Of a DNA stretch of 64,000 bases, positions 1-32,546 are shown piece by piece. Position 1 is the first letter of the stretch. The number at the start of each line of letters is the position of its first letter. Source of the stretch: Thuidium tamariscinum (Eukaryota; Streptophyta; Bryopsida; Hypnales; Thuidiaceae). The translations under genes were made by a program, and so were the position numbers. The stretch spans positions 24,145,067-24,209,066 of the forward strand of contig OX344758.2 in the NCBI GenBank assembly GCA_947034885.2, written 5' to 3'. The notes under the pieces were generated by a model. The model was not told where the DNA came from, searched no databases, and saw only the letters and a program-made list of their open reading frames with translations.

Positions 1-159
1 AAAAATTGGGTTAATGGTTTGATTAAAAAAATTCGAAATGGTGGGAATAAAAAACAAAAGCATATATACTTGTGGCATATGTAAAAAATAGAATTTTGGC
101 ATTTTTTAAAAGTAAACTTAGAAAATATACTTTAAGTGAAAGTATAGCATTGGATTTAA

Positions 160-1081
160 CCCCTAAAGGACCATTGTCCCCTCGGGGGACAATTTGGAGT
201 TCGGGCAGGTTCCGTAGGCCTCAATTTTTAATGAATCTTTCTGAAACTTTCTCATAAGATAGGAAAACTGATTAGCTTCATGGGAATGTAATTTTTATTT
301 CAATTGGTGACCGGGAGCAAAAGTTATACCACAAAAAGCCCAAATTTTCATTCGGCGGGCAGAAATTTTTTTTTGCAAAAAGTCAAAATTTAATTTTTTA
401 ATTTTTTTTTCTAAAATAATATATTTTTGCCTACATGTGAAGCTTTGATTCACTCTATTTGGACTTATAATGAGAAAGTTATGGACAATCTTGTTTTTCG
501 GGCAATCTAAACAATTTCTTGAAAAAATAACTTATAGGATTCATTTTTTAATGCAATTTTCACAATTTTTCAAAAAAATTGTTGGACAAGGTTATGTTTA
601 CTTGCTAGAACAATCTCACCATTGGGATTATTGTATTTCAATCCCATCTTAGAGTTATTAACCATTTAGTTTTTCCTTCAATCTTGGACCTACATCTACT
701 TAACAATTTTTTAAAGAATGAAAATCAAGTGTTTTTTGTGTGAAAATTTTTTCCTAAACTCTCAACTCAATTTTTTAACACAAAAAATTATAAATTCAAA
801 GTCTATAGTGCAATTTTTTAATACAAATTCCAGTCAAAGTCATCTGAAATTGCAAACTACAGTTCAAAAAAACTTGTATTTCCAACTTTGAATGCTCATA
901 TCTTCCAATTTGTACGGTCAAACTTCATGAAATTTTTACCACTTGATCTCAATCAAGTTAAGTACAAGATCCTATGGTTAGATTCTGAAAAAAATATATT
1001 TTTTGTTTTCTTCGATGAATGCAACAGAAATGGCAGTTTTGAGAGGTTTTTGACAGAAAAAAGGCCTTGGTCCTTTAGGGG
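160..1081 (+). mobile_element. 922 bp TTAA element (piggyBac-type, non-autonomous), copy A1
   Basis: Flanked by TTAA on both sides (156-159 and 1082-1085), with inverted ends starting CCCCTAAAGGACC. A small palindrome (TCCCCTCGGGGGA) sits just inside the left end. TTAA duplication and ends starting CCC are the habit of the piggyBac superfamily. No transposase is encoded; the interior is AT-rich and the short ORFs within it look fortuitous. A second copy lies in reverse orientation at 13964-14886. Two diverged relatives are embedded in each giant hAT element. Confidence 0.8.
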
Positions 1082-1340
1082 TTAAATGAACTTGTTGCAC
1101 ATACATTTCAAGCAAACGTATTGAGTATTCTTTTCATTTGTTCATGGTTAAGTTTTCTGTTTAAGTGTTTAACAGACAATACAGTTGTACGAGAAAAATG
1201 AAAATGCTTCATTGTCCAAAAAATGTACTTTTGCAACATGAGCAATAAACGCTCGTAAATGGTCATCATAGCCAAATACTATTTACAATACTAATATACT
1301 ATACATCCGTCTAATGGCCTAACTCATCACCAGAAGGTAT
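1082..1340. other. AT-rich 3' flank of the RING gene
   Basis: Nothing coding is seen. This is the region just downstream of the RING-gene stop and probably contains its 3' UTR and polyadenylation signals, but no unambiguous signal can be picked. Confidence 0.3.
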
Positions 1341-3704
1341 TCAACCTTGTTCTAGTTCTACAATGCCTCTGGCTATACTATTTCTCAAAAAATTTTGCAA
1401 TCCTTCTCTAGATTGCAAACTGTTCAATGTAGCCACTATGGTCCGATCATATCGATCGTGCAAGTAGGAAGAAATGGATGACAACATTTGCACCTCATTG
1501 AACGTAGTGTCTTCGATGAACCTCATTTGTGCCTCATGATCCAGGTCTTGGAGTATTCCGATAGGGTTTCCGCTGGAGTCAAAAACCACATTCTCTGGAT
1601 GTGGTCGGCGCACGAACTCCTCTCGGTCCAAGTCCCAATGGCCACCAGCAAGTTGGCCAAAAAATACTCGCCGCCCTGGATCGCCCGCACCAATCAGCTT
1701 CTTGTACACCTCCGTAATCTCCGCATCATCGATCCACGGAACGTCTTGCACGCTGCGCCCGGTGAGGTGTCTACTGTCATGGCCCCACTTCCACATCCAT
1801 ATCATGTCATTACCCCAACTCCCTCTATTCTCATCGCCAAGCAAGTTCTCTTCGTTTAACTCGAAGTGCGGGGGCATGTGATGCTCCAACCCAAATTGGA
1901 CGTACAACCGCCGGTGCAAAGGAGCCTTGCATTGCGCGCACCGCTTTCTTGTGACCATGTGCGGAATGAGACATCCGGGGTGGTACATATGTCCACACGT
2001 TCCAAGGCTCCATCCACCCTCGGGCCCAAACGGTTCCATGCAAATCATGCACGTCGTTCCATCCTTCACAAACACGGGAACTGTGGGCCACAGTAAGGGG
2101 GTATTGCCTTCTCTATCCACGGGCCCGTATCGGTATCTCGCGATGTTGAATTGGAAGTCTAGATGCGGATGCCCGTCCCAATCAATGCTTGCATTATCGC
2201 GATTTGTGGGCAATGTAACTGGAAACATATCCTCTTGTCGGGCCCACGATGTCAAGCCAAAATAACATTGGCTACCATCTCTAAATTCTGCAGCTACTCT
2301 CCTGACCTCACGCTGCAGTTGCGCGACCTCGTTCATAGCCAAAGTGCATGCCAATCTCATGTTGCTCATGGCAAGCAACTTTTGCTCCCTTGTAGTTGAC
2401 GTTTGGAGCAACAATCTATCCTTCATGGCATTTACAAATGCCAACTCGTCTTGTAGTTCACGCATGGATGCTGATACAGCCTCCATGCTGGCCTTGGCCT
2501 CATTGCACTCGCCCTCTGCACGCTCCGCTCATGCCACAATGGCATCGTACGCCACGCGCTCAACGCTAATGAACTCTTGGCCCAACGCATCTGTTGATTG
2601 GTTTGCCGCATTTGAATTCTCACCACGAAAATGTGGTGTTGGGAATATACCACGAGGCCGCACCCGGCGCACCGTCAACGGGTCAGCTGGCTCAATTAGA
2701 CCATATGTGGCCCGCTCCACGACCTCATCCAATGGTGGAGTGCCATCCGTACTTTGGCGACGTACACGTTCAAGCAAGTCAATGTTACTTGCTAGTAACT
2801 TAGCATTCGTTTCCTCTAAAGCCTTCACCCGTGCGTTGTGGGCTTGTACCTCCATCTCGTGCCTTCGCCCAGCTTCTGCACCATCCTCACGCAGCTGAGT
2901 CACCAATGCATGTAATGCCTCTAATTCCCCATTCGCTCCAAATACTTCATTAATTGTTGTGGACGGGGGAATTGGGTGAATGGCGAGTGGCATGGGCTCG
3001 CTTGGACCGGCAATGGGCGCCTCCAATTCGGGAGCCACCGGGTTTTGTTCGTTGGCGCCTTGAAGTGCATTGTCGACCTCCATGGGGTCCGTGTCCGCCG
3101 CTTCGTCCCCTTGTGCCCAAGCCACTCCTTCGCCCTCCAATTGCACTGCAGGATTTGGTGGAATTCTACGGCTTTTAGTAGGGAAACGGCCACCCCGTTG
3201 TTTTGCCGTATACGTGTTCCAATCCACGTCCTTGCCCAAAAAAACCTCCGCATACGCCATTTGACACAATGCGAGGGTCCCATCCTTCTTCGAGAGGGTC
3301 CCCCAAAGTGCCAATGCCACCTCGGTCAACCGCTTCTTGAACGCTAGGTGTATGCAATACTTTATCAATGCAACGCCAGATCGCACTTGCGTCTCATTTC
3401 TCTCCCGTGGAAAATGGCGGTTGATGTGGGCCCAGTCCACGTATGTCCGACATGTGGTGCGGGTCTATGGCTCAAGCACCTGTTCCCACCCGGGCGCGGC
3501 CAAAACTTCACCAGTGTTGAAAGTCGCCTAATCTACAGTGCTCCTGTTCCCACGACGCCTCCTGTGTGGGGGTTCACCTTCATGGGTCACCATCTCCTGG
3601 TTTTCTACCATTGGGGGGTGATTTGCAGCAATTACCACCTCCTGGTTCTTTGCCATGGGGGGGTTCTCTACATGTATTACCATCTCTTCAGGGTTTAAGG
3701 CCAT
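1341..3704 (-). pseudogene. RING-H2 finger protein with coiled coil and novel N-terminal domain (three in-frame stops)
   Basis: One reading frame runs from ATG 3704 to the stop at 1341, about 787 codons. Order: acidic/basic N-terminus; a domain (about residues 65-165) shared with the protein at 21307, with landmarks PGWE, TTCR-YV and DVDW; a Pro/Glu-rich linker; a coiled coil (about 270-420); a RING finger (about 545-595) reading CMIC...CGHMYH..C...CAQC, a complete C3H2C3 ligand set; and a conserved-looking tail. RING-H2 fingers usually mark E3 ubiquitin ligases, so a ligase role is inferred. Stops lie in frame at 3530-3528 (TAG), 3467-3465 (TAG) and 2531-2529 (TGA); each could come from CAG or CGA by C-to-T. 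The start was chosen because a 3' splice site ends at 3710, six bases before the ATG. It is paired divergently with the kinase-like gene, now split from it by the K1 insertion. Confidence 0.72.
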
Positions 3705-3913: not shown

Positions 3914-3965
3914 CTCCCCATTACCAAGGCTCGTTAGGAGTGCTAATTTGTGTCTAATCACATCG

Positions 3966-4370
3966 CCATGCACCACCTGGAGCCGTTGATGCGGACAGCC
4001 ATCGACGGTTGGTACGTCCAGGGAGCGTCGACTCTGGTTCGGGAGGCCATCGACAGCTTCGGGATGACGTCACAGAGGCTGTCCACAGGTCCGACGCCGT
4101 CAACGAGTTCGAAAAGCACTCATGACAATAGAAGCCAATTATTACTCCGCCGAATTACAAATTCGATGGCCCAAAATGGCTCATCGTGACGGCCTGCCCG
4201 TGGTCTTGGACGGCCACTGTTCCGCTGTGGACAGCCTGCTCGGACAGGTCGACGCTCCGGCCCGAGGTCCTGGACGACCTGCCCAGGTCCTGGACGGGCC
4301 CGTGTTGCTGGACGGTTTTCTGGACGCCCTCCGTCCCCGTGACAGCTTGCCCAGGTCCTGGAATGGCTAC
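3966..4370. promoter_or_regulatory. GC-rich degenerate motif array upstream of the RING gene
   Basis: About 400 bp of GC-rich DNA with many near-repeats such as GTCCTGGACG, GGCCGTC and CGACGG, abrupt against AT-rich surroundings. Similar arrays stand upstream of the other three genes of the left part of the window and beside the hAT-like end at 32546. They may be transposase or promoter-factor binding sites; that is inference. Confidence 0.5.
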
Positions 4371-4399: not shown

Positions 4400-6565
4400 G
4401 TGGAATCCAATTAGACAGCCAGGATCCAATTACACAATTGGTATTCAGTTAGGCAGTTGAGATGCAATAAGCTGTAAGACAGCTGAATTTTAATGAGGGT
4501 GAACTGGTGAAGATTGCCAATGCAGTACCTATATACTGTAATTTTTATTGGAGCTCAGTGAGTTAACATTCACAGCTTGCATTTCTTTTAAAAAAATTTT
4601 GGGATTCATTCATGATTGTGACAAGTGTGTGACTCATTTAGATCTTGTATTTCTTTTTAAATTTTTTTGGGATTCATGATTGTGACAAGTGTGTTAGCCA
4701 TGTATGCATGGTAGGAGGCTAAGATTCCACTTATTTAAATTAAGAGTTGATTTGCCTTTTTCGTGTATGTCTTTAGATGAAAATATTTTTAGTTTATTTT
4801 TCAGTCAAGGAGAAATAGATGAGGAATCTAATACAAGTTGTTTCATATTTTTTTGAAGCAAAATTGAATTAATTATGAATTTTCAAACACAATTTGTCAT
4901 AGGACCCTATTTGTGATCAGTAAGCCTTGAAAACCTATACATGCACAGTTTCTAAAAAAATCTGGTTTGGTTCAAAAACTAGTAATGCAATATGTAAAAA
5001 ACACTAGAAATGGTTTCTAAATGTGTCCTTTTCAAAAACTGAAATGAATTCTTCAATTAATCATTATTTCAAAACAATTTAACATTTGAAAGAAGGTAGT
5101 TTAACAACCATTTTTTATTTTGAATAAAATTAGTAGACACCTATAAGTACACTTAGTTAGGATTGAATCCATTGTAACTCTAAAACCATCCATTCATATA
5201 GTAAAAATCAAATCTTAGCATGCTTCAATATAATCCACAATTAGTTTTCTCATAATGAGCTATCCAATTCAGACCCTCTTATTAGGCAGATAAAAAAGCC
5301 TGCATAGTTTATGAACCTCCGTGTGAGCTTCCTACCATAATAGTTGATTTGAGAGCAAGAGGTCCTTGAACTTCTTCATTTTAGATGTTAGAATGGATTT
5401 GCAGACTTATTGATACTCGTGTTTTTAAACACAATCGGCTTATTAAATTCCCTAAGTTTTCTTATTATATAAATGAATGTGAATATGCTCTTGTGCCTTT
5501 AAATTGGTTTTAAATATTGCATTAGGATTGTATACTATAGTTTAATTTCTCTATTGTGTGCTTTGTTTTCTTATAAATGGTGAAATATAAATAGTTGTAG
5601 CTTTGATTTTTGATTTTCAAACTCTTTAGTGGCACATAGATAGCATATGCTGTGCGTTTCACCATGTTCTTAGTTCATCAAAATCCTTGAAGCTGACATG
5701 TTTCCTTGTATACAATGTTTTTGATCTTCTCAGTATTTTGTAATTATGAAATGTAGAAAAAAAATAGGGTGTTCAAAAATAGTCCTTCAAAGAATTTCCA
5801 AAAAAAAATAGGGTACTCTAAAATACACTCCGGTAGCTTTATTTCTACTAATAGGGAGGGAAAAAAACATGAGAAGGACATAAATACCCCCCCATTAAAT
5901 AACCCATTATCGCATGTGGTTACCAAAAGATAAGTGGTGTGAACCCCCCGAGTCTGTTATTCAAACCATTCCCATTTTTTTTATTCAAACCATTTCCACA
6001 TTTTTTTCCAAACCGAACCATTTCCATATTCTTTTAGTCGAACCATTAACCCATTTTTTGGTCCAAATCCCTTCTATATATTTTTGCCCAACACCCGAAA
6101 CCATTAACGTTTTGCTTTATTCACACCACTTCCATTTTTGGGATTCAAATCATTTCCATATTTTTTTTAATCGAACCATTAACACATTTTTTTCCAACCC
6201 ATTTCCACATTTTTTTTATTCGAACCGGGCTCGACAATTTCTTTCCAAAACATTTCTATATTTTTTTGGGGTAACTTTTTTAACCCTTTGACGTGTTTTT
6301 TTGGTTCAAACCATTAACACACTTGCGGAATTCTAACTTTCTTCTAGGGTTTATCATACACTTCGGCAAAGAGAGAATTAGAGCGGTTTAGGGTTCCGCA
6401 GAAGAGTCTGAATTCTGAAAATTGGTTGGTGCCCACTAACGGAGTCTTGTTTGCCAGTGCCCCCGTCTTAAACTCCTAATTAGTGCTTTAGTTCACTTAT
6501 ACTTTCATAACTCATAGTTTCATAACTCATAGTTTCATAACTCATAAGTAGAGTACATGACTACA
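4400..6565. other. AT-rich non-coding stretch with a degenerate CAAACCATTTCCA repeat
   Basis: No gene seen. From about 5950 to 6325 a 20-30 bp degenerate tandem motif recurs (CAAACCATTTCCA or CGAACCATTAACA followed by a run of T). At 6500-6550 a 15 bp unit (CATAACTCATAGTTT) repeats about three times, just outside the K1 target duplication CTACA at 6561-6565. Confidence 0.5.
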
Positions 6566-9500
6566 TGTCGTAGCACAGGAAAGTCAAGTTTCTTCTCTAA
6601 AACCGGAATTGGCCTTAAAGTGACTCGTTTATCGTTCCCACAGAGATTTGGTTGCCAGATGACTAATATCCGGAAATCGGGATAAGGATTACCACAAAAA
6701 CACCCAAGCACACTAAACTAAGCTTGTCTAAACCTACTCTAAAACTCCTACAGACTCCCTATCTTACACACTTTACAAAATCAGAACCGGAACAGAGAGT
6801 GGGTGTTAAGTCCAGCTCTTTTACATCCTAAGGTACTTTCCGGTTTTTTCCAGTAACCAGTATCCGGAATCGGATTTTAACCTCTGAACAAGAGGGATCT
6901 GCGTATTGTGATTAAGGAAGGAAGCTTACAACCTACCCTCTGCGTTTTAGAGTGTCAAGAGTGCCACTTAAGTAAAGAAACCAACAGAACACATCAACCC
7001 TTTTCAACCTAATTTCCCTCACAACTAAACCGGATAGCTATCTGGCCTAGCAGGTCACGCAAGGAAACTTCAGTCAAAATCTAACTTAAACTACAACGAC
7101 GGCCTACTAGATTAGTCTAAATTCTGGGCAGAATCCGGGATGGGTGGAATGAGAAGCCGTCACCTTCCCCTCATAATTCCGGTTACCAAAGAACCTGTCA
7201 ACCGCTTGAACTGGAGTGGTCTGGAATTATCCAAGACTATGACTCCAAGTGACTGGGACTGTCTTCAGGCACCGGAAACCAGGAACTGATCGCATTGAGG
7301 GGTCAAGAATCCACCATCACACATAGATTACACTTACATTTCCAAGAATCCGGATAAACCCAACATCCGGGTACACTCTCGCCCTATCTATTTCTGCAAT
7401 TCTACAGAATATACCCCAACGGCCCAACAAGATCACCCACTAGAATACACGCCGCTACCTTAATGTGAATCAGAAGAGCTGATTTGAATTGCACAATGCT
7501 AGGAAAACAAGGTATGAAAATGCACACATAAAGAACTAAAAACAAACACCTAAATACTTTACAATCCGAGGGAAACTACAGCCCAAGGAAATCAAAGCTA
7601 ACCACAAGGGAATGACACCTGTCATTCGCCTTATCCTTCTCCTCCGTTGACTTCTACTGAAAGCCAAAAACTGCCGAAAAAAGTGGATCTCAGATCCGAA
7701 AAATCCGGATTCAGTTGAGTCCAAACTACCTACTCACCTAAAAGCCACTAGGAAAACGCTTTCTACCAAAAACTTAGGTTTTCAGCCTCCTAACTACTGC
7801 TATACCTAACCCTGAATCTACTTTCTTGGCCGCTTCGCTGGAGTCTCTCCCGACTTGGCGGCGCCCTTTCGTGCTGGCTGTTTCCGGGCAGAACCGGAAG
7901 TTTTCTTGTGCTTCTTCGCCTGAGTGGACTTGGCCTTCAGTTGGGCCTTGATCTTGCGTGTCATAGCCAATTTGGCATCCGGATCAGAGTCCGGTTCTAA
8001 CTCCTCTCCTCCTGATCCAGAGGATTCTTCATCTTCTTCCTCGGATTCGTCTTCCTCTTCTTCTTCCTCTTCCTTGATCTTGACCGGAACTGCCTTCTTC
8101 TTCTGGCTATCGGTTAACTTGCTCTTGGATGGGGAAGGTTTGGGGGATACTGTGGGTTTCTTGCTCTGTGGAGTTCCCACACTCCCTTCCCGATGCTGTG
8201 ATTGGCTCTTGGTCAAGGAAACCGGTGTCTCCCCCGTTCCGGATTCCAGTATGATGGCCGATTTGGGAGGTGTGGTCATAACCACATCCTCAGAGGGCTC
8301 TCTGGTTTTGTCCTTCGTCACCGGAGTTGTTGGCTTCCCTTTTGGCAAGGGTGGCTTAGAGGGTGTCACCTCTGTCACTTTCTCCTTTTCCGGTTTAGTT
8401 TCCGGTCGGACGGGCGGACTGACCTCTCCCATGACTTCCCTCATCTGCCCCAACAACCTCTCCATCTTTACGTTGAAGGAAACTAGGACATTGATCACCT
8501 TATCTCCTAGTTTCCCTGTCCCTTCTAAGACCTTCTCATCAAAGAGTTTGGCCTTGTTCAAAACCTCTGCCGGAACGCTAATGAATTCTTTAATCCGGTC
8601 AAGGGTCTCTACAAACTCAGCTGAGAACTTCCGGTTCCGCTCATTTTCTTGCTTTTGCTCACTCAGCTCCGCCTTAAGGGAGAGCAGTTCCTCCATCATC
8701 TCTTGATGCTTAGCCTTTCCGGATTTCCCCTCAGCATCATCTATCAGGTTCCTGAGCTGCTCTATACATTCACTCCCTGGAATGTCTCCCAACATCTCGC
8801 ATACCCTTTTCAAGGTCTCTCTTTCTCGCTCATAACTCTCATGAACTTTCCTGAGTTCCCTTATGATAGACCCTAACGGGTCGCTGTTCTAGACAGGGTC
8901 CTTCTCCTTTCCCCGTTCTACCTTGACCCCTGCCTTGCTATCCTTTTCCGGTTCCGGTTTCCCGATTAACTCGGAAGGTTCGCCCTCTCTCTCATCTTCC
9001 TCTCTCTCATCATCTGAATCCGACTTCATCCCATGGGCTAACTTCACCTCTCTCACCGTATACTCCTGTCTTTCAGTTTCCCTCATGCAATCTTGTGAAT
9101 GATAGAGGTGGTAGAGAAAGGGAGAAATACTAGAGGGTTTAGTCTTGCCAACCCCCTTGCACAGCTTTACAACATAATCTCTCAAGGCTATACCCCAGTC
9201 TATCTTCCTGTCCCCGCTTAGTGCTCCAAAGATGGTATTCCCCAAGGTGAGAGTCATCCGGTTTCCCCTATCCGGACTGAGAATTGGCACCATAAATTCT
9301 AACACCCTCCTTTCTCTCGCGTTCTTACAATCACTTACAATGTACCCATCCTTGTTGTGAGGTGCTGCCCGGAACTTACCCACCATGAACTTGTCAGTCC
9401 GTGTGGCTCCTCCTTCTCCTTCCTTGGCGAAACCATACACTTCCCTCCAGATTCCCGCCGTCCATTTTTCCGGAAGTGCCCTAATCGTCTTCTTCCACTC

Positions 9501-10361
9501 GTTCGACTGTGGATGCAGCAACTCCCGCACCATTACCTCGTCCTTGAAGCCCCACGGCCGATCGACCAAGCCAGCGCAGCCCATTTGGCTAAGGTCCTCC
9601 AACAGGTCCGCTTGTTCATCAGCATCCTCTGGAATAACCGGAACTACACTTCTCAACGAAACCTTGGTGGTGACCTCCTCCTCTGCCTCGCTCCCAGACA
9701 TGGCTCCCACTCGTGAAACTCCCACAACTCTCGGAAAATCCCCAAAAGCCTTACACACCCAACTAACTCGCTCGGGTACTTTCGCTGTAACCGGAAATCA
9801 GGAAACTAGCCTAAGCAGCAGCAGAGCGCGCGTACAACTCCAAACCTCAGAGCTCCATAGGCAAACATAAGAATGAGGTCTGGAACTCCAAATGACGACC
9901 TAAAAAGACTTCACCCGGGTTTACCCCCTCCCTCACTCTCGGCCGCTGGGAACGGAGTTCTCGACATTCTGACCGTTAAAATCCTGTGGTCTTGGGCCTC
10001 TCACGAGACTGACCGTTGGGTGGTACTTTCTCCAACTCCCGGTACGACTCCTATCGGATTAAAACATGGTCTAGTCTGTTCCCGATAGATTTAGTATGAA
10101 TTTAAGTACCCCTGGTGTCAGGATCCCACCTAGTTTCTAATTTTCTTAATCCGGGTAGACTTTCCGGTTCCGGTTCCGGTAAGAGGACAATCTTTTTCTT
10201 AACACTATTATCCCCTTACCATTTCCCGACATTCCGGTTTTCCTCACTTCTACTATGACTTGGGATATGGACTAGAAAATCAAAAATAAATACGACAAAT
10301 CGAAAAAATTAAAAGGTATTTTATACTACTTAACCTAAAGAAGGATTTTAGGGTTGTGACA
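6566..10361 (-). mobile_element. K1: 3.8 kb LTR-type unit carrying a gag-like ORF
   Basis: Read on the minus strand the unit starts TGTCACAACC and ends GCTACGACA, so TG...CA with short TGTC/GACA ends. It is flanked by the 5 bp duplication CTACA (6561-6565, 10362-10366). No second LTR pair is seen inside. It therefore looks like a solo LTR that contains a protein-coding region, or an LTR-derived unit. Parts: upstream region about 650 bp, gag-like ORF (9701-7818), then a 1.25 kb 3' region with blocks shared with K3 (GCGTGACCTGCT, GGGAACGATA, TTCCTGTGCTAC). A fossil with about one break in its ORF; moderately old. Confidence 0.8.
7818..9701 (-). pseudogene. K1 gag-like ORF region (broken)
   Basis: Conserved N-terminal domain of about 230 residues with the landmarks NKDGY, NTIFGALSGDRKIDWG and SPFLYHLYH, all shared with K2, K3 and K4. 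An acidic linker follows, then a coiled coil, a Ser/Glu-rich acidic stretch and a Lys/Arg-rich tail ending KRPRK. The core resembles, by eye, the 'putative plant transposon protein' domain found with plant Ty3/gypsy elements. A gag-like, nucleic-acid-binding role is inferred. Fossil, about one break. Confidence 0.65.
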
Positions 10362-10366
10362 CTACA

Positions 10367-11549
10367 TGACCAGAATATTATGCAATATAGTAATATACTA
10401 ATATGTACATGTAGTACTAATCTAATTTCCTAAAAAATATATGCCTAGTCGGATGGCTCCCGAATTTAAAATTGAGAAGTTTAAATCCCTACATATCCGT
10501 AGGGCAACTTCTAAAATTTAGGGTCCATCACTTCAGCCATTCTCGATATGAGCTGAAGCACTGGAAGGCAATGTAAAATTTTAGCCGTGTACATTACACA
10601 CTACCCACCAACAAGTTTAGGATCATCCAATTCTACCATTGAAACGAATTTTGCATAATATAATCAAGCATACCAAATGTGGATTTCACATAAGTCAAAT
10701 TCAGTTTTTGGTGAATTGTTTCATTCAAAACTCATAGTTTAGCATGATAATTGATTATAAAACATTGGTGATGAATTAGCATTAATTTGCAAAGAGGAGA
10801 TATATAGGAAACATCCATATGCACATCTTTCATACCAAAAAACATCCTAGATTCCTAGTAAGTTACAACAATATAATTGGGTTGAAGAATTCAATTAGGC
10901 ATTTTATATGACCCCATTTTGTAAAATAGATGTATGTACGCTTGAATTAGATTTTGGCAAAGTCATTGTACGGAAATGATTTAAGTTCCTCAAGGAGTTA
11001 TAGTGTGACCATCAAATAGCAAATGCTAATTAAGCCGGATTAAATTATTAAAATTAGCTCCTATTTCCTAAATTTGCGGGGGAGAATGAAATTAGATGGA
11101 AAGGGAGGAAGTAGAGCTTTTTGACGACACAACTGAGAACGGATACGCATCAACCGAAGAGGTATGTGTTTAGACTAGAACCAATAAGTTTAATCATTTC
11201 ATGTTATTTCTTTTATTTACTTCAAAATTTGCAAAATTAGATTGACGCTAGGAAAAGAAAGATCAATTACCGAATACAAATTATAATGCACTTCTTAAGT
11301 TATTAAATTACTAAACTAGACATTTTACCCTCATTTACGCAAAAGTAAAAAGGAACTTAAACCCTAAACCCTCGGTTGGGCAAGGCCTTTAGGTTGGGTT
11401 TTCACCTTCTCAAAATTCAGTGTCAGCCCTTAGATGGGCGATTTCTGGGCATGTTACCTTATTACCTTGTAGAAGAATTTCAGTCGCACGAGGCTTGCCA
11501 TTAAGTCCGTTAATGGCTTCACTGGCATCTTCACCGCCCTGTGCTTCCC
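10367..11549. other. AT-rich intergenic stretch between K1 and the kinase-like promoter
   Basis: No convincing gene. A short ATG-led open stretch at 11094-11160 followed by GAG|GTATGT looks like a small exon with a splice donor, but no partner exon is apparent. Confidence 0.35.
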
Positions 11550-11880: not shown

Positions 11881-11883
11881 GGC

Positions 11884-12084: not shown

Positions 12085-12085
12085 A

Positions 12086-14886: not shown

Positions 14887-14890
14887 TTAA

Positions 14891-18626: not shown

Positions 18627-18639
18627 CTGTGAAGGCCTG

Positions 18640-21127: not shown

Positions 21128-21306
21128 CGCGGCGGACGGCCTATTCACGCGCACTTGCTTTCCTCGCGGAGTGGGTTATCCAGCACCTTCGGGAATCTCT
21201 GGACCCCTTCTGCTTTGGTGAGTGAGCAGGTGTTGCTATTTTGAGTTGCATAAACTCGTTCTTCACTTCATAATTCATTAATTTCTTCTTAATCAATCTG
21301 ATCACT

Positions 21307-22446
21307 ATGCCTCATAAAGGATTTTCATTACCGCGAGGAAAGAAAAGCACAAAGGGCAAACCACAAGATGTAAACTAGAAAGATATTGAAGACCGATGGT
21401 GTATAGTTGAACCTGGATGGGAAGAGGAGCCCAAGAAATTTTGGGATTGCACAACATGCAGGAAGTATGTGAAAATGGTACACCTTGCCAAACTTTGGGA
21501 ACATGATCGGGCAGAGTTGCAAATTGCCCGTTGGGAAGGACAAATGTCCTTGTGCTTGAGCCAACACTTTGTTAGGCGGTACGAAGAAGTTACTTCTACT
21601 GCAAATATCCTTAGCACGAAAACAAATGTCATGAATTATTCCACCATGGCTATGGTTTGGGCAGAGATTGTGCTTCACAAGGAAGTGGATTGGCGCACTA
21701 TTACAGGGCGCAATACAAAAAACTTGGATCGCACTCACGGCATGATTTACACAAATTGGACAGAGGTGAGTGATTGCATTCCGGAGTGGTCCAATCGAGG
21801 ACAATTTGGGTATCCTCCAGTTCTGTTGCCGAATGCAGAGGACGATCTTACAGATGACGATGACGTCAATGACGTTCCTATGCCTGCACCACATGGACAC
21901 AAGCATGAACATCGTGAAGAGCGTGAAGACATCGAATTTGAACAACAAATGCGGGAGGCAATGCGTAGAAGCGTAGAGAATCGTGGTTGACAACATCACC
22001 ATGATAGGTCTGGCCACCGTGACTATAGTACACATGGCACAGAACATGGAGGAAGGAGTTCGCAATACGGTAATGCCCCCCAAGGTGGTTCTTAATATTA
22101 TCCAAGTACTACACACTATGGGCAGTATGGAGGGGCTAGCCAAGGAGGGGCCCAATACTATTCGGGTACTGCAAACTATGGGTAGTATGGAGGGGCTAGC
22201 CAAAGAGGCTTCCAATATTATCCTAGATCCACAATAGGGGGATCATATGGGCATCAAAGAGGCTCAAATTATGATGGTTCAAGTGCAAGAGGAACTGAAT
22301 ACAATGCTCCAGCTCCTCCTCCCACTTTTAGAGGTCCATACTATGGAAATTATGGACAAGGCGGTACGTCAAGCGGATATGGATATGGCAGATCAAGCTC
22401 TACATATCCAAGTCAGGATGATGACGATACTTCTGATTTGGAGTAG
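21307..22446 (+). pseudogene. Protein with RING-gene-like N-terminal domain and Gly/Tyr/Gln-rich tail (four in-frame stops)
   Basis: One frame of about 379 codons. A basic N-terminus (RGKKSTKGK) is followed by about 95 residues (38-130) matching the N-terminus of the RING protein: PGWEE, CTTCRKYV, a helical stretch and WAEIVLHKEVDW against YAEVFLGKDVDW. Then an acidic patch (DDLTDDDDVND), a His/Glu-rich helix, and a low-complexity tail with repeats of the QYGGASQGG and QYYS type ending DDDDTSDLE. Such tails are common in proteins that self-associate; that role is inferred. In-frame stops lie at 21376 (TAG), 21988 (TGA), 22093 (TAA) and 22183 (TAG), all reachable by C-to-T from CAG, CGA, CAA and CAG. 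It is divergent from the transposase gene. I do not recognise the family. Confidence 0.68.
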
Positions 22447-22945: not shown

Positions 22946-23149
22946 ACTATTTACAGGGTTTTCTCTGGCGACAACGCGACATCACGACAACCAGACGTCA
23001 CACGACGTCTAGTAGATATCCTCACGACGTCCAATAGAGTCAAAGTTACCTTTGACTTTTAAAAATTTACCACACGGTAAATAACGCCACCTGGATGCCA
23101 TGTGGCATCCACGTGTTACATTTTGGAGGCGCATGTGGATCTAAAAAAG

Positions 23150-23215
23150 ATAGGCGACTACAGGTATAGGGCGACCTCTGGTAGAGGCGACCTCGGGTAG
23201 GGGCGACCTCTTCCT
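23150..23215 (+). repeat. Left GGCGACC cluster of giant hAT copy 1
   Basis: Four spaced GGCGACC motifs (one is GGCGACT) separated by TCGGGTAGGG-like spacers, next to a poly-T run. Copy 2 has an expanded version at 44330-44475. Confidence 0.6.
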
Positions 23216-23299
23216 TTTTTTTTTTTTTTTTGAGAAAATGGGGAAACCCCATCACATTAAAAAGAAAGGGGGGTGACCTCTTCTAATGCTGTTAGAAAA

Positions 23300-24180
23300 A
23301 ATTGCACTCATCTAAGAATACAAAAAATAAAAATTTAGAAACACTTAAAGCCTTTTGTCACACCCTAGTTTTTTATTTGTTTTTGGCCATAACTTTTTTT
23401 TTTTGCTCCAAATGACTTAAAATTGGCAGGGAAGATACTCATAGCTATTATAAATCTATAATGAATTTTGGAGATTTTTCAAAAATAATTTATTATTTTT
23501 AAACAGCCCCAAAAATTTCTCACAATACTTGATTTAGGGGTTTTTAGCACCATTTACCTGCGAAAAAAACGAATTTTGACCTAAAATTTAGAGAGGATGG
23601 TCTCCTAGTAGACTTATAGCTATTGTCTAAATGAATTTTTAAAATACTTATTTTAATGTATTGTAGAAGTCTACAAAGAGAGCTTCATTTTGCATCTTTT
23701 CTTAAAATACATAAAAATACATCATTTGGAAAAACTTTGCGGAGATGAGATTTGACCAAAAAACTCACTAAAATAATGTTTTATACCTTTGAAAAAAAAT
23801 GCAAAATGAAGCTCTCTTTGTGGACTTCTACAACACATAAAAATAAGGCTATTTTGAAAATTCATTTAGACAATAGCTATAAATATACTAAGAGACCATT
23901 CTCTCCAAATTTTAGGTGAAAATTCCTTTTGGGGGGAGGTAAATGGTGCTAAAAACCCCTAAATCAAGTATTGTGAGAAATTTTTGGGGCTATTTAAAAA
24001 TAATAAGTTATTTTTGAAAAATCTCCAAAATTTATTATAGATACATAATAGCCATGAGTAGCTTCCCAATAAATTTTGAATCATTTGAAGCTAAAACACA
24101 AAATTTATGGCTAAAAAGAATCAAAATCTAAGGTGTGACAAAACGCAACAAATAGTACAAGTGTTTCTTGCAATCACCCA
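23300..24180. mobile_element. Foldback element inside giant hAT copy 1
   Basis: A long imperfect palindrome: the left arm from TTTTGTCACACCCTAG (about 23355) is echoed in reverse by the right arm ending CTAAGGTGTGACAAAA (about 24143). The right end reads TTTCTTGCAATCACCCA. Near-identical octamers flank it (TTAGAAAA, TTAGAAGA). No ORF. A relative interrupts K2 at 39281-40012. Confidence 0.6.
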
Positions 24181-25175
24181 TTAGAAGATATTAGCATTCA
24201 AGTTGGAAAAATAAAATTTTGAATGTTGGACTACAATTTCAATGACTTTGACCATAATTCATGGAAATTTTTTGCACTATAGACTTTGTTTCTTATGTTA
24301 TATTATAATAAAAAAATTGGTTTAAAAGTCTAAGAAAAAAAATTCCAAAAAAATAAATTTGTTTTCAATCTCTAACCCCTAGAAGCCCAAAGGGTTAGGA
24401 CAAAATGAAAATGTGATAAAATACAAGTTCTATAACATTTTTGAAGTTATCATTAAAAAAGATTATATGAAACACAAAAAATAGAAAGTATCTATATAGG
24501 TAGAGTTTTTAAGTTGTTTTTAGATTATCTTCAAATGAATTTTGAAGATATAACTTCAAAAAAATCACCAAAAATACAAATTTCATCTTTAGTACTTGAT
24601 TTTTTTTGGATTGGTCAAAATTGTGGTTTCTATTGATTTGTGAAAAAATGAAAAAGATCTAATAATGAAAGAATCAACATTTTCTCCAAATATTAAATTT
24701 TTCAACACTATGCAATTCTAAACACTTCCTACTATTTTTCTTATAATTTTTGTTTGATCACATTGATCTTAGTTTTGAATGTAAATGTTGAAAGACAATC
24801 CAATTTTTTTAAATTGAAAAAATATATAATGCCCAAAAATTCTACCCAAAGTCAAGCAACAATTAAAAAAAAGCCGTGTGAGTACTTAGGGGTTTACAAA
24901 TTGTTAAGTAGAAATAGGTTGAACAAAAAAATAAATTATTGATAGCTCTAGGATAGAATTGAATCACATAAATTCTAATTGTGTGATTCTTCTAGGAAGA
25001 AAATTTTAACTTAATAAATAGTTTTTTAAAAAATTTGTGAAAATTGCATTCAAAATGAAATCTAATACGTTATTTTTCAAAAAGTTTCTATAATTGCTCA
25101 AAAAACAAGATTATCTATAATTTTTTAATCATTAGTCCAAATAGAATGAATCATAGCTTTATATGTAGACAAGGG
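24181..25175 (-). mobile_element. Old TTAA-family relic in giant hAT copy 1 (first)
   Basis: Runs parallel to A2 over about 1 kb: GCATTCAAGTTGG, AATGACTTTGACC, TTTGCACTATAGAC, AATTGAATCACA and AACAAGATTATCTATAA have A2 counterparts in the same order. The outer ends are lost or degraded. Confidence 0.55.
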
Positions 25176-25916
25176 GATTCTTGATTCTTTACGTGTTATA
25201 TTTCAATTTCATTTTGTAGACTTTTTCATGCAGTAATTTAGGATTGAACAAATGAGAGTAAATTTTATGACAAAAATTACAAAATATTTGCACAAGAGAA
25301 TTCAAATTTGAGATTCTATGCATAGACCTCAACACCTTATCACCTTGCATATAAGATATTCAACATATTTTTCTAAATGGCACATCATAAAAGAATTTGT
25401 TAATTTATTTACATTAGTTTTTGAAATTTAGAGGCATGCAATGTGGCCTAACCATTTATGCTAGTATAGGAATATCATGTCCTATTACAAAATAATGGGT
25501 GGGGGAAACTATTTTCAAGAGCTTCATCAACCATGGTTTATCTATAAGCAAGTTCACCAACTATTCATTTGTCAATTGCTTCTTCGAAGCAATACACCCA
25601 ACTTCCTCATTAAGCACCTTAATGTTGATGTATTTTCAAATACTTCACTATTGTATTTTTTCATATTATTAATTAATTTTCATCAAGTTGGCAAATTTTC
25701 CAATAGAAAACAAAATAGATTCCATTGTATATTTATACTTTGCTTGCATTCTCTGTATACTCTTCTTTAAATGTTATCACTTGATCACAGAGAATAATTT
25801 TAGAGTCATCTACCAACAATTCTTTAATTTTTAGGAAAAATAGTAAACAACATGAAAAATCTCAATCTAATGCCAAAAAAATTCCAAAATAAAAGAGAAT
25901 TTTACAAAGGCAAGGC
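25176..25916. other. AT-rich spacer in giant hAT copy 1
   Basis: Contains a 97-codon ORF (25477-25770) that recurs with substitutions in copy 2 (46741-47034). It is hydrophobic and Phe/Leu-rich; no family is recognised and coding is doubtful. Confidence 0.3.
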
Positions 25917-26466
25917 AATGGCTCCCACCTCCACCTCCAATTGCCCTACACCCGCGGTTGCCCACAAGAGGTCGCCCCAAGACCCGAAGTAGCTCCAAAA
26001 CGGCCCAAAATGGCCAAAAAATGACTTTTTTTGAACTTGGACAAGGGAATGGCTCCCACCTCCACCTGCAGTCGCCCTAGACCCGCGTTCTCCTACCTTT
26101 GGTCGCCCCACACCCGCGGTCGCCCACAAGAGGTCGCCCCAAGACCCGAAGTAGCCCCAAAATGGCCAAAAATGGCCAAAAAATGACTTTTTTTGAACTT
26201 GGGCAAGGGAATGGCTCCCACTTCCACCCGCGGTCACCCTAGACCTGCGTTCTCCTACCTTTGGTCGCCCCACACCCACGGTCACCCACAAGAGGTCGCC
26301 CCAAGACCCGAAGTAGCCCCAAAATGGCCAAAAATGGCCAAAAAATGACTTTTTTTGAACTTGGGTAAGGGAATGGCTCCCACCTCCACCCGCGGTCGCC
26401 CTAGACCCGTGTTCTCCTACCTTCGGTCACCCCACACCCGCGGTCGCCCACAAGAGGTCGCCCTTC
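25917..26466 (-). repeat. 162 bp minisatellite in giant hAT copy 1, about 3.4 units
   Basis: Unit boundaries at GACTTTTTTTGA: 26023, 26185 and 26347, exactly 162 bp apart. Each unit carries several GGTCGCC motifs (GGTCGCCCACAAGAGG, GGTCGCCCCAAGACCC). As 162 divides by three, reading frames can stay open across units. Confidence 0.85.
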
Positions 26467-26759
26467 AGAAGTGGTCGCGAAAGAAACATAGAGTATGGCA
26501 TTTTTTTCAAAAATGGAGGGAAAGAATAGTCTAGCTCATTGTGATTACTTACACTTGCTTCAATTTCTGAATTTATTAATGTACCTTTTATGTTTGGTGA
26601 CCTAAGAAAATGTTTATGTTTGAGATTAGACTTCAATGCCTAAATGGCTAATCTCATTTGCTAAATATCAAAGCTCTTCTCAAAATTTGTTTACTTTGGA
26701 TTGTCTATAGTAAGGTTTTAATTTTTGTGTATCTAATTTAACCTATGAGTTCTTTCTAC

Positions 26760-29400
26760 TGGATAATTGGAGTGATAAGGTCACAACTTTCATTGAGCAT
26801 TCTGATTTTGCGGAAAGGGAAATTTATTATTGTATGAATGTTTGTGTAAATGGAATTGTAATTTTTAATGTATTGATAAATTAAATGGGGACCAATCTAC
26901 ATTGATCTCTATTTATTATTTTGTATTTTGAAATCCAATACACTATGAGGATGATTCATTGACATTTACATAAACTAAAAGGAGAAGTTATCATTTAAAT
27001 CTCTTTCTTCTTATTTTAAAATCTTAAATTGAAGTAGTAAATAATACTTGAGTAGAATGATGCTTCAAGAATGGAAAATTTTAATGGATATCTTCTTATA
27101 CAAATCTCAATCTATTATTTTGTATTCTAGAATTTATTTCATAAATGTTTTTTGCCACAACAACTCTTTGACATTTTTGTAAGTCAAAAAGCAAATGTTT
27201 TCATTTAAATATCTTTCCACTCATTTTTAAGAGTGAAATGAAGGTGGTGAAATATTAAGATATGAGTATGGTGATACTTTGGAAATAGAGAACTCAAATG
27301 GGTAAATTGTTATTGAAATCTCTATCCACTATTTTGAGTTCTAACATCCACTTGATAAATAATTTACCAAAAAGATGAGCCTTCAAATTAAAGTTGCATA
27401 AATCTAAAACAAGAGTTTCATTTTTTTAATCTCTTCCCTCTAATTTTAAAGACAAAATTAAGGTTGTGTTTAAATAAAACATGAGTATCATGATGCTTGA
27501 AAAATGAAGAAATTCAAATGGGCTTATAGGCAAATTGTTATTGAAATCTTTATCTACTATTTTGAGTTCTAAAATCTATTTGATAGAATAATCCACCATG
27601 AGGATAAGCCTTCAAAATAAAGTTGTATAAATAAAAAAGAGAAGTTTCACTTATATCTCTTCCCTCTAATTTTTAGGATAAAATCAAGGTGGTGCCTAAA
27701 TAAGACATGACAATGATGATGGTTTGAAAATAGGAAAAATTGAAATAGGCAAGTTGTTATTAAAGTCTCCATCCCCTATTTTGAGTTCTAAAATTTGCTT
27801 GATAAATAATTTGCCATTAGGATGAGCCTTCAAATAACATTTGTAGAAATAAAAATTAAATTTTTTTAATTTAAAGTTCTTCCTTTTTATTTTTTATTTA
27901 TTGTTGAAGGTGGAGATTGATAAATAGTACGCAAATATAATGATGCTTGAAAAATAGAGAATTTTAAATGGAGAAGATTGTTCACAAATATCCATGCATT
28001 CTTTTTTATTCTAAAATTCACTTAATGAATATGACACCATTAGCCTGACTTTAAGATTTGATTAGATGAAAAGGGAAAGTTTTCATTTGAATCTCTTCTT
28101 TTTAGTTTTTAAGCTTTTGGTGAAGGTAATGAAGAATACATGAATATGTTGATGCTTGGAAAATAGAGAAATTGAAATGGAGAAGTTTTTAGTTACACAA
28201 AATTCTAATAATTATTTTGTATCCTAGAATTCACTTTATAAATCTTGGGGGATGCACTTTGTAATATATTAAGACATTACGTGCATTCAAGCCCTTATAA
28301 GATGGGGGCAATGTAGCTACATTTGGTGAATTAAAATAGACCTATCTTTACCTAAATTTTTAAAGTTAGGTAATTTCAATAACCCTATCTTTATTTTGAA
28401 TTTTTCTTGGGTGCTAATTAATCATACACTATGTTCGTTATACATAAGAAAGACCTGCATTTTTTTTGCAAATACAAAGAAAAAAGAATTTGTCATTAAA
28501 ACTTTGACTAAACATGTGATACATTTAGAGGCTAGAGACTAGATAAGCAATACTTCCATTTTAAACAATTTCATTCAAACACATTCAAAGTGTGAGTACT
28601 CACAAGAGCACAACCATTAGTTGTCACCATTAGTTGTCATCCATTAGTTGTCACTCTCATTTACATGTAGAGCTCATGCTCTCATAGTATTTAGCTCATA
28701 GGATTCCTTATTTCAAACTTAGTATACTTCATAAAAGTTCAAATTTCTAGAGATCCTTTTTGGCTACCCTTATTTAGAAAAACAAATTTGATAAAGTTGT
28801 GTATTATTTTCTACCCTTCATTATTTATAATGATAATAGCTCATTTTAGTGATGCTAATTTATTTCTAAAAATTGTTTAAAATTTAGGCTAAGGGAATTA
28901 AAAGCACCTTTCATTTGATTGCATGCTATAATTAAATAAACCAGGAGTGCCCCCCCTCCTGAGTTATAAATTTCACACAATTAGAATGACTATGAGATTT
29001 ATATAAAATCAAAAGAGAAATTTTAAGTTAAAATAATCTCTTCCCTCTAGTTTTAAAATTTTTGGTGAAGGTGGTAAGTTATACATAAATATAATGATGC
29101 TTGAAAAATAGAAAAATTGAAGTGATGAAGTTCTTATACAAATATCCATTCATTATTTTGTATTTTGAAATCTAATTATTTAATAATACAGCTTTAGAAT
29201 GATTCTTTGACTTTTACATAAATTACAAGGAGAAGTTTTAATCAAATCTATTTCTTCTAATTTTTAAATTTAGTTGAAGATGCTAACTTGCTAAGAAATA
29301 TAAGAATATAATGATGCTTGGAGATTAGAAAAATCAAATTGGGATGATTTAAAAAAAAATCACAATCGATAATTTTATATTTCAAAATCTTTTTGATAAG
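26760..29400 (+). repeat. Degenerate tandem array of about 215 bp units in giant hAT copy 1
   Basis: The landmark TGATGCTTGAAAAATAGAGAA recurs in diverged form near 27060, 27270, 27490, 27716, 27940, 28150, 29095 and 29313. Between landmarks come 'ATCTCTTCCCTCTAATTTT' and 'CTATTTTGAGTTCTAAAAT' blocks. An unrelated 0.75 kb segment (about 28240-29000) splits the array. Confidence 0.65.
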
Positions 29401-29429
29401 TAATACATTAGTAGATTGTAATCTTCTAA

Positions 29430-30712
29430 AGTTTCATTGTCTCCACAAGGGGGTAAAGTAGATTTTGTACAAGTTCCTATAATGTCAAATTTTTATGAAT
29501 CTTTTTGAAACACTATTATAAGATAGAGAATCTTATTGGCTTTCTAGAAATGTAGTTTTATTTGAATTAGTGCCTTAAAGCAAGAGTCATATCACAATAA
29601 GCTTAGATCTAAATTATGTAGGTAAAAACAAATCCACAAAAATTAAATTTTTTTTTCTTATAGATTGTAATTTTGTCTACTTAGAACTTTGATTCATTTT
29701 ATTTAGATTGATGATGCAAAGATTATGAATCATTTTGTTTTGTGGGCAATAATAATAAGATTTTGAAATTGTTTGAGATAGGATTCATTTTTTACTTCAA
29801 TTTTAATTTTTTTTTTAAAAATTTTGTAGCATTAACATTGATTATTAGAACAATTTCACCATTGGGATTAGCATTTCTAATTCCACATTTCCACCTTAGA
29901 GCTATTAATTTTTTTTTCCTCTATGATGTACCTTCTACTTAATAATTTAAAATAAAATGACAACCACATTATTTTTCTAACTTTTATTTTTCCTACATTC
30001 TCAACTTAATTTTGAATGATATATTAAGTTAAGATCTAAAGTGAAAACTTTTTAAGTTAAGAAAATCAAATCTCATAAGCTAAAGTAGACCAACCCATTT
30101 CCATTTGTAACTCTATTCCACCAACTAGACTAGCCTATTTCCGTCACTCTAGTTTTGGCCCCATTTCTACTTCCCCCCCCAATTCCCTTCATTCTATGAC
30201 AAAATCAAGGATTTTATGACAAGTTGGAGTAATGTGTCACTATTTAAATAGAAAATATCTAGTTGTTGATTAGGTGGTTATACAATGTTTATAAGTTGTT
30301 TATGATCCTAGCCTAAAGGTGGTTTTGTAATTTAGGATTGTCTACTTCAAAAATTCATAGAAATTACGATTTTGATTGGAAAATTATAATTTTATTTGTG
30401 TTTGATTCAAGAAACATGTGCACACTTCAAATAAATATGTGCCCCTCTTAGAATTGACTCCAACACAGCTAGATTGCAAGTAGGCATGTCTACCTTAGTT
30501 TGTCATTGTCTTCTAAAACATAGTTTTTTCACTTTGAATGCAATTATCTTGCAATCTATGTGGTGAAAATTTTTGAAATTTTTTTCACATATTCTTATAG
30601 TATAATATGGTAAGATCCTTCCATTATATTTGCAAAAAATTCCATTTTAAAATTTTTTTGCTCTTTATACTAGAAATGGCAGTTTTGAGTGTTTTTTTTG
30701 ACAATTGCAACA
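29430..30712 (+). mobile_element. Old TTAA-family relic in giant hAT copy 1 (second, inverted)
   Basis: Parallels A1 in A1 orientation: ATTGTCTCC..GGGGG near the start, TATAAGATAGAGAATCTTATTGGCTT, CACCATTGGGATTAG, and AAATGGCAGTTTTGAGTG at the end. Opposite in orientation to the relic at 24181. Confidence 0.55.
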
Positions 30713-31010
30713 AAGAGGTCGCCCACCCGAGGTCGCCCCTAGACCAGAGGTCGCCCACCCGTAGTCGCCTCTTGATAAGAGGTCACCTCCAAACCAGAGG
30801 TCGCCCACCCGTAGTCGCCTCTTGATAAGAGGTCACCCCCAAACCAGAGGTCGCCCCTCGACAAGAGGTCGCCCTCAAAATTGGACACGTAGTCGCCCTA
30901 TTTTGAAGCGCGGTCGCCCTTCCTGAAGTCGCCTTCAAAATTAGACACGCGGTCGCCCTATCTTGGAGCGCAGTCGCCCCACTCGAAGTCGCCTACCCAA
31001 AGTTCCACGT
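30713..31010 (+). repeat. Right GGTCGCC cluster of giant hAT copy 1
   Basis: About a dozen GGTCGCC/AGTCGCC motifs with ACCAGA and TTGATAAGA spacers, in inverse orientation to the left cluster, so the two clusters mirror each other. Copy 2 has a shorter version at 52752-52965. Confidence 0.65.
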
Positions 31011-31189
31011 CACTCTGAACAATCTGCCATGTATGCCAAATCCATTTACCGTAGGGTAAAATTTTTTTATCTTACTCGACGGGCTGCGACGGGGTAGCAA
31101 CATGTTGTCACCTGCGACACACGACGTTGGACGTCCTACACGACACCAAAACCCAAAAATATGTCCGACAAGAAAACCCTGACTATTTA

Positions 31190-31984
31190 GTATTTCAATA
31201 CCTATCTTTTATTTCCAGTGACTTAGTATAGTGAAGGATTAATATCTTGCAATAGCCTCAAAATTCCTAATTTCATACACAATTTGGTACTTCAAAATTG
31301 TGTACTTGTTCATAAAATAACTTTTCAATTCTTCAAATAAATATATGATTTGTCTTTCAAAGAAAACATATACTCAATTGCAAATAATTGCAAATGATTG
31401 CAATATTGCATGTTTCTCGTAGCATCATAATCAATACAACTTTAAGAAGACTTTGACATTCAATTATTTAACTATTGAAGAATTCAAGGAGATATTGTAT
31501 GCATATCTAAATATTTCTCAAAATTTATAGTTTTTTCTATTCCCTTTATTAGAAATCCACATGTTTTAATTTTTTATAAACTTTTTTTGGGTGGAATTTG
31601 TACTAATTTTTTAATTTACATTTCACATGTTCCTATAGATTTATAAGAGGAAAGATTATGAAGTTTGATTGTAGAATGTAGGCTACTCGCCAAGTGGATT
31701 AAAATGTGTGAATAATTAGGATTTTTTTTTCTTACATGTCAAATATAATGAATAGTTAAATTCAATATATTGAATATACCCCTAAATTCAAAAATTCAAA
31801 ACGCTAGGTCAAGTGTCTTCAATAGGTGAGAATCAACTAAGAACTATCATTTCACTTTTAAAATTATGGTAAAATTTCAAGAGTGGTTGTAGGAAACTAG
31901 TTCCAATATTGGTCTCAATTATTTGTTGTTCAACTAATTTGGTACACCTCAAACATCTCAGATTCTGAGACTAATATTCAAAAT
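31190..31984. other. AT-rich stretch to the right of giant hAT copy 1
   Basis: No gene recognised. If the multigene element is real, this is its interior near the right end. Confidence 0.3.
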
Positions 31985-32546
31985 GGCCTCCCTCAAACCG
32001 AAGCGACCCGCCCGTCTGCTTGTCCGCCAACCCGTCCCAGGGTTGTCTTGTCGAACATATTTTTGGGTTTGGGTGTCGTGTATGACGTCCAACGTCACGT
32101 GTCACAGTGACAACTTGTTACGAAGGGCGTCGCACCTCGTCGCGAAAGTCCATTTTCAGCAGTTCAAAAAAATGAAAATCTTACTATTACTATGAACCTA
32201 AATGAAGAATGTAATATGTATTCATAAAATTGAAACACTTAATTGAAATCCAACTTAAATATGTCAAAATTTTAAATTTCTAATAATTTATTTTTAAGTC
32301 AACTTGATTTTTAGTCTTTGAGACGTCATGAGGGCTCTACTAGATGTTGCATGACGTTTGTCTGTCGCGATGTCGCAATGTCCGGCAGAACAACCCTGAC
32401 CCGTTCGCCTTGGTCGGCTGGTGCGGCCGTCCACTAGACGGTAACGTCAAAAAATTGTAAATGTCAAATGACGTCTGGGAACTAGCGGACGCTGCCGATG
32501 GATGTTCGGTCGTGACGCTGGACGTCCGAGCGTCCTGTCAACCCTG
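31985..32546. promoter_or_regulatory. GC-rich subterminal region and hAT-like right end
   Basis: Apart from the MITE nested at 32038-32398, this stretch is rich in CCGTC, GGCCGTCC and GACGTC motifs and stops at AACCCTG (32546). It is the outermost example of the GC-rich arrays seen by the four genes. The next base begins a methyltransferase-like frame. Confidence 0.5.
32038..32398 (+). mobile_element. 361 bp hAT MITE, copy 1
   Basis: Starts CAGGGTTGTCTTGTCG and ends GCAGAACAACCCTG. Flanked by 8 bp repeats with one mismatch (ACCCGTCC 32030-32037, ACCCGTTC 32399-32406). Its first 100 bp resemble the right end of the giant hAT in reverse, and its last 100 bp resemble the giant's left end in reverse. 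Same length as copy 2 at 57437. Confidence 0.88.

Follow-up and report, generated by a model that had tools for sequence, protein, structure and literature searches.

Transposons of the hAT superfamily are generally regarded as needing little more than a transposase, and the element proposed here is several times longer than the usual hAT. Kaonashi, a Mutator-like DNA transposon with ULP-like protease genes, carries a gene of a ubiquitin-like pathway, as does the locus described here, but it belongs to another superfamily and its product is a protease and not a RING ligase. The available excerpts of other studies describe how the BED zinc fingers of the Hermes transposase bind repeated subterminal motifs (PMC10368747), how VANC of the Arabidopsis VANDAL elements binds a short motif that is dense in the non-coding parts of the element and causes loss of DNA methylation (PMC5735166), and how TET+ hAT7 of Puccinia, a hAT with a TET/JBP gene, is thought to counter methylation-based silencing (PMC12730594). 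No hAT element with both a RING and a kinase gene was found among the literature matches listed, which consist of titles and abstract starts with thin coverage of subscription journals, and in a review on how plant transposons capture genes the word hAT occurs 0 times in the main text (PMC13317346).

In a window of 64,000 bp from Thuidium tamariscinum (the window being the whole stretch of DNA analysed) we find two divergent gene pairs, made up of a hAT transposase gene and three accessory genes, which probably form the core of one large hAT DNA transposon of the autonomous type, now partly decayed. Judged by its transposase, the putative element is by membership a hAT, and neither a VANDAL nor a TET+ hAT, while its working may resemble that of VANDAL/VANC and of the TET+ hAT. 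With the hAT superfamily (Ac, Hermes, Tol2; DUF659-type) it shares the transposase domains, a weak alignment of Hermes residues and a CAGGG-type end, and also a short motif repeated near the end, comparable to the subterminal repeats in the available part of the Hermes work (PMC10368747), but it differs by its three accessory genes and by internal promoters with the same motif. As far as the excerpts of the VANDAL studies go, likenesses are several genes per DNA transposon, a short family-specific motif arrayed by the genes, tandem repeats as targets and variable repeat-bearing proteins (PMC5735166, PMC10398659). The VANDAL transposase is Mutator-like whereas only hAT domains are found here, where the array motif is a putative binding site, and the VANC domains DUF1985 and DUF287 gave no Pfam match in the RING, kinase and Gly/Tyr/Gln frames, less positions 3465-3704, 21307-21378 and 21991-22446. 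TET+ hAT7 is alike in being a hAT with an accessory gene, which according to the excerpt encodes a TET/JBP dioxygenase there (PMC12730594) but not here, no Pfam match to this family being found in the scanned frames of the four genes within the window.

Gene content of the locus

The preliminary description of this DNA had claimed an intact hAT transposase together with three further genes in two divergent pairs. All four were located, a RING gene on the minus strand and a kinase gene and a Gly/Tyr/Gln-rich gene on the plus strand accompanying the transposase, in the order RING (3704..1341, minus) / kinase (12086..13747, plus) and transposase (18415..15272, minus) / Gly/Tyr/Gln-rich (21307..22446, plus):

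1341..3704, minus strand: RING gene, 788 codons; shared N-terminal domain, RING-H2 finger and a C-terminus without assigned domain
12086..13747, plus strand: kinase-like gene, 554 codons, 1 internal stop (codon 144)
15272..18415, minus strand: hAT transposase, 1047 aa, no internal stop; the C-terminal third looks disordered (by eye)
21307..22446, plus strand: Gly/Tyr/Gln-rich gene, 380 codons, 4 internal stops; N-terminal domain followed by Gly-, Tyr- and Gln-rich repeats

The transposase matches the Pfam families DUF659 (E 1.8e-35, 122.3 bits, cut-off 34.7) and Dimer_Tnp_hAT (E 1.3e-8, 34.9 bits, cut-off 21.4). Its motifs SDEW, TDNAPN, CSAH and CERKWS, read as the DDE residues and CxxH typical of the superfamily, stand beside their Hermes counterparts, which we take to be the catalytic residues, in a weak phmmer alignment with a whole-sequence E of 0.016, the two aligned stretches taken alone being not significant (E 2.9 and 31). 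Near its start (residues 25-57) a CxxC...H...C pattern can be recognised by eye, without a Pfam zinc-finger match. When hAT-like ends with an 8-bp duplication were sought in the 64-kb window, no convincing smaller, ordinary hAT element was found around the transposase.

Among the accessory genes the RING finger scores 29.3 bits with Pfam zf-RING_2 (cut-off 27.3) and the frame has 3 internal stops, at codons 59, 80 and 392. The kinase-like product matches Pkinase (E 3.6e-9, 36.8 bits, cut-off 31.7) in the C-lobe only (profile positions 79-169 of 263), and HND, N, DWG and APE motifs are readable by eye. The Gly/Tyr/Gln-rich gene contains a 60-bp tandem repeat at 22106-22221, and its longest open stretch, 21379-21990, gave no Pfam family. 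Predicted structure models were poor, with a mean pLDDT of 31.3 for the kinase and 47.9 for the shared domain. In total 8 in-frame stops (3, 1 and 4) are present in the three accessory genes versus 0 in the transposase; set against the remaining CAA, CAG and CGA codons this is 8 versus 100 and 0 versus 45, a difference which is not significant (Fisher p 0.11).

When analysing the regions upstream of the genes, the following layout was found by eye for RING, kinase and transposase: an array, then a TATA-like box, then a 5' UTR that may hold a short intron, and the ATG. The preliminary description had ascribed the same layout to all four genes, and this held for these three but not for the Gly/Tyr/Gln-rich gene, where the box is looser (CATAAAA) and a donor-like site is followed by no acceptor before the ATG.

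Searches for relatives were performed in collections with few eukaryotes: all three scans of viral contigs found none (2 pattern matches for the transposase, 7 for the kinase and 28 for RING/Gly-Tyr-Gln, none confirmed), neither did the single scan of prokaryote genomes for the transposase (6 pattern matches, none confirmed), and tblastn of the transposase against plasmids, a collection equally poor in eukaryotes, gave no match. Within the window a tRNA scan (ARAGORN, bacterial mode) and an Rfam scan returned nothing, while NCBIfam in all six frames gave only matches far below the curated cut-offs.

Motif arrays common to the genes and the proposed right end

All four genes are preceded by arrays of a short GC-rich core motif, CCGTC/CGTCC and their complements, and the same motif is arrayed at a right-end-like sequence at 32546:

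3940..4360: array before the RING gene; 14 core motifs (letter shuffles mean 2.7, 0 of 1000 reach this), held-out density 114/kb (0 of 254 background windows)
11480..11890: array before the kinase gene; 22 core motifs (mean 3.0, 0 of 1000), held-out 139/kb (0 of 254)
18630..19275: array before the transposase; 40 core motifs (mean 5.3, 0 of 1000), held-out 187/kb (0 of 254)
20850..21140: array before the Gly/Tyr/Gln-rich gene; 16 core motifs (mean 2.1, 0 of 1000), held-out 155/kb (0 of 254)
31975..32037: subterminal array, inner part, separated from the outer part by a MITE
32399..32546: subterminal array with the proposed right end, the tip reading ...CCTGTCAACCCTG/ATCTAGAG (the slash marks the end)

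For the right-end array (31975-32037 together with 32405-32546) the values are 10 core motifs in 205 bp (shuffles mean 1.3, 0 of 1000) and 146/kb (0 of 254). Borders of the arrays were drawn by eye, and the letter shuffles keep the composition only and not CpG; the CpG observed/expected ratio in the four gene arrays is 0.97-1.34. Eight out of eight comparison stretches (the MITE, three pieces of an 8.2-kb element, three coding parts and the gag region) were unremarkable against letter shuffles.

GC-rich arrays beside each of the four genes and beside the right end had been noticed before, and counting bears this out: at least four CCGTC/GACGG occur in 6 of 129 bins of 500 bp (starting at 4000, 11500, 18500, 19000, 20500 and 32000), CGTCC/GGACG picks out the same six, and these bins fall at no other places than the four promoters and the right end. 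Altogether 102 of the 217 core-motif positions in the 64,000 bp fall within 1,980 bp.

In a held-out test the 6-base words from three gene arrays were counted in the fourth, and those from all four were counted at the right end. The background consisted of 254 GC-matched windows, overlapping and all from this 64-kb window, with host CpG-rich promoters not among them, and reached maxima of 70 (RING), 80 (kinase), 55 (transposase), 95 (Gly/Tyr/Gln) and 75 per kb (right end). The 146/kb of the right end thus compares with a background mean of 23.8 and with at most 97.6 in 500 shuffles, and each of the five held-out values also lies above 500 shuffles of its own array. A running scan with 57 words in 200-bp windows gave 235-390/kb for the gene arrays, 85 and 110 for the right end and up to 75 elsewhere. 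No array is weaker than that of the right end, whose density in the running scan is lowered because the nested MITE dilutes it. Finding the same motif before all genes and at the one visible end hints that the element brings its own regulation.

Inside the transposase array, GACAACCCTG at 19061-19070 resembles the right tip of the element. When AACCCTG at 19064-19070 was tried as a right end no left partner was found, and a looser look gave only poor candidates, so that it was rejected as an end.

The proposed right end and its neighbour

A hAT-like end cutting into a methyltransferase frame had been proposed at 32546, and this was recovered: the end is of the CAGGGTTGACAGG type, with CCTGTCAACCCTG at 32534-32546 followed by ATCTAGAG and directly by an open methyltransferase frame. 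This frame, from 32549, is that of a C5-DNA-methyltransferase with stops (Pfam DNA_methylase, E 4.8e-11). Within the window, end-motif and end-pair searches revealed no left end of the four-gene element and hence no 8-bp duplication belonging to it; of its two termini only the right one was seen, and the element is present as a single copy.

The methyltransferase frame extends over 32549-33688 (plus strand) and is closely followed by a Ty3/gypsy-type gag and protease (33939-36566, plus strand). The methyltransferase motifs follow the order FGG.G, PCQ, ENV, apparently unrearranged (by eye). Charophyte gypsy retrotransposons, in the excerpt available, carry a methyltransferase within the Pol frame, and the unrearranged methyltransferase beside a gypsy-type gag is a likeness to them (PMC5890265). 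Since it is placed within Pol there and before gag here, either the order differs from that in the charophyte elements or two elements abut.

Nested insertions and size of the proposed element

A search for end pairs was performed with 206 left and 238 right CAGGG-like candidates, allowing at most 1 mismatch in an 8-bp duplication and asking for 8 of 14 end bases. It gave seven pairs in the window, of which four are convincing, 22954-31181 (ACTATTTA), 44134-53143 (ATTAGAAC), 32038-32398 (ACCCGTCC/ACCCGTTC) and 57437-57797 (CCCGTGTG), and none of these four encloses the transposase. The other three are weaker: 55084-56901 and two pairs whose duplications are A-runs, 5765-20262 and 5809-20262. 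An element spanning kinase and transposase between 5765 or 5809 and 20262 was considered weak and is not credited because both candidates begin in the A-run.

Six apparently later insertions, which account for much of the length, are set apart from the core:

153..1085 (borders from the alignment): nested element whose ends read TTAACCCCTAAAGGACC, its first TTAA standing at position 156
4480..11480: presumed insert, AT-rich, that separates the RING array from the kinase array and contains two frames (9797-7818, minus strand) of a family recurring in the window
13960..14893 (borders from the alignment): the other copy of the TTAACCCC element, its last TTAA ending at position 14890
19280..20850: presumed insert, AT-rich, that separates the transposase array from the Gly/Tyr/Gln array and holds a remnant of the TTAACCCC element
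22954..31181: nested non-autonomous hAT of 8.2 kb with the ACTATTTA duplication on both sides and CAGGGTTTTCT ends
32038..32398: nested MITE of 361 bp with the ACCCGTCC/ACCCGTTC duplication and ends like those of the 8.2-kb family

The regions 153-1085 and 13960-14893 form an 81% inverted match and were considered as a structural inverted repeat of the four-gene element, but each copy has its own TTAACCCC ends and they are therefore read as two copies of another element. For the two AT-rich presumed inserts a search for duplication-flanked ends gave only short or low-complexity matches.

Subtracting the four insertions with defined ends (10,472 bp) from 1-32546 leaves 22,074 bp, and removing the two AT-rich presumed inserts as well leaves about 13.5 kb, the core inside the window being of this length or more. 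The earlier estimate of at least 18 kb was too high because nested insertions were counted in. With the inserts set aside, and reasoning from the coordinates, the end of the Gly/Tyr/Gln-rich gene would lie some 1.5 kb before the right end, and the two arrays of each pair would become near-continuous, like a two-way promoter.

The second copy of the 8.2-kb hAT family lies at 44134-53143, giving a size range of 8.2-9.0 kb; the two copies are 93-97% alike in three long matches and have perfect 8-bp duplications. GTCGCC arrays are present near both ends of this family and the same GTCGCC motif occurs in 162-bp tandem repeats inside. No frame longer than 174 aa is found in 22954-31181 and only one of 349 aa, running through the tandem repeats, in 44134-53143. 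The other copy of the MITE (57437-57797, 361 bp) has CCCGTGTG present twice, and judged by their ends both MITEs are likely deletion derivatives of the 8.2-kb family. Elsewhere in the window a protein family without class has four copies, at 9797-7818 (minus), 53572-55663 (plus), 41381-40164 (minus) and 63430-61715 (minus), in one or two frames each, with the N-terminal part 41-55% identical and no match above Pfam cut-off in the frames scanned, and 5.6 tandem copies of a 68-bp unit, matching at 93%, are situated at 58352-58732.

A domain common to two accessory proteins

Pairwise comparison of the four proteins revealed a homologous N-terminal domain in the RING protein (residues 51-168) and the Gly/Tyr/Gln-rich protein (residues 10-135), with a local score of 131 against a mean of 38.3 (sd 4.7, maximum 59) in 200 shuffles. 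None of the remaining five pairs scored above the best of 200 shuffles. This homology is new here and goes beyond the earlier reading, and since each of the two divergent pairs holds one of the homologues, the two pairs are linked by it.

In one alignment column of the domain an in-frame TAG is present in both genes, at RING codon 59 and at codon 24 of the Gly/Tyr/Gln-rich frame (21307..22446), which could be due to chance, a splice feature or read-through.

One element or several

We infer that the four genes, the arrays and the right end belong to one element. This part of the preliminary description gains from the held-out motif test and from the homology of the RING and Gly/Tyr/Gln-rich proteins, but the size had been overestimated, and in this copy all genes other than the transposase are interrupted. 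It is unlikely that there are two hAT-related elements, neighbouring or nested, from sister families with common arrays, one carrying RING and kinase and the other transposase and Gly/Tyr/Gln-rich gene with its end at 32546: the two pairs are indeed separate, their 3' ends facing each other at 13.7-15.3 kb across a TTAACCCC element, and the right end adjoins the second pair only, yet none of the convincing hAT end pairs in the window, each with its 8-bp duplication, separates them, the motif words are common to both pairs and the RING-Gly/Tyr/Gln homology crosses from one to the other, though sister elements could have it too. It is very unlikely that a simple hAT transposase merely lies near unrelated host genes, with arrays that are ordinary CpG-rich promoters and with 32546 as the end of a small or dead element. 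The CpG ratios of 0.97-1.34 are as in unmethylated promoters, the left end falls outside the view and the right end is the weakest array, all of which would fit, but GC-matched windows from the same DNA do not contain the words at such a density, the same words mark a transposon-like end and two of the three non-transposase genes are paralogous.

A single element whose accessory genes were captured passively from the host and play no part in transposition also seems improbable. In-frame stops in all three of them and none in the transposase would fit passengers (with the non-significant Fisher p of 0.11 given above), but each is preceded by its own copy of the array, the frames are full-length and not fragments, and the RING and Gly/Tyr/Gln-rich genes are diverged paralogues, thereby pointing to long residence. 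One hAT element with a transposase and three accessory genes of its own is the reading preferred here.

Proposed mode of action

For such an element the arrays would be candidate binding sites for an element-encoded protein, by means of the putative N-terminal zinc finger of the transposase, the shared domain or both. Since a CxxC...H...C pattern, albeit without a Pfam match, is found near the start of the transposase, the simplest view would be that the CCGTCC arrays are bound by the transposase, at the ends and also at the promoters, and that from the promoters it controls the accessory genes as well as its own. Array binding would thus let the element recognise its own ends and promoters. 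It might also bring the kinase and the RING protein to the transposase or to chromatin at the element, resulting in phosphorylation and ubiquitination, and the outcome would be that transposition is tuned or that host silencing is lifted. Having a domain in common, the RING and the repeat-rich protein may act on one and the same target, and a kinase together with a ligase suggests that this target or something beside it, either the transposase or host silencing factors, is phosphorylated and ubiquitinated; the accessory proteins may in this way act on the transposase or on host factors.

A more far-reaching version, which we put forward tentatively and consider doubtful, is a control module of the hAT's own: a DNA- or chromatin-reading domain on a RING ligase and on a low-complexity, condensate-prone protein, together with a kinase, would be drawn to the arrays at every promoter and at the ends and would modify host silencing factors at the element's own copies only, a hAT counterpart of VANC working through ubiquitin and phosphate signalling. 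Family-specific recognition is suggested by the 8.2-kb hAT family in the neighbourhood, which is built similarly but has GTCGCC as its motif. If true, the locus would be a fresh case of co-evolution between transposon and host silencing, in which the transposon has its own kinase and RING ligase and its end motif at each internal promoter, and it would show the hAT superfamily, too, to be capable of evolving control by several proteins over its own silencing and activity.
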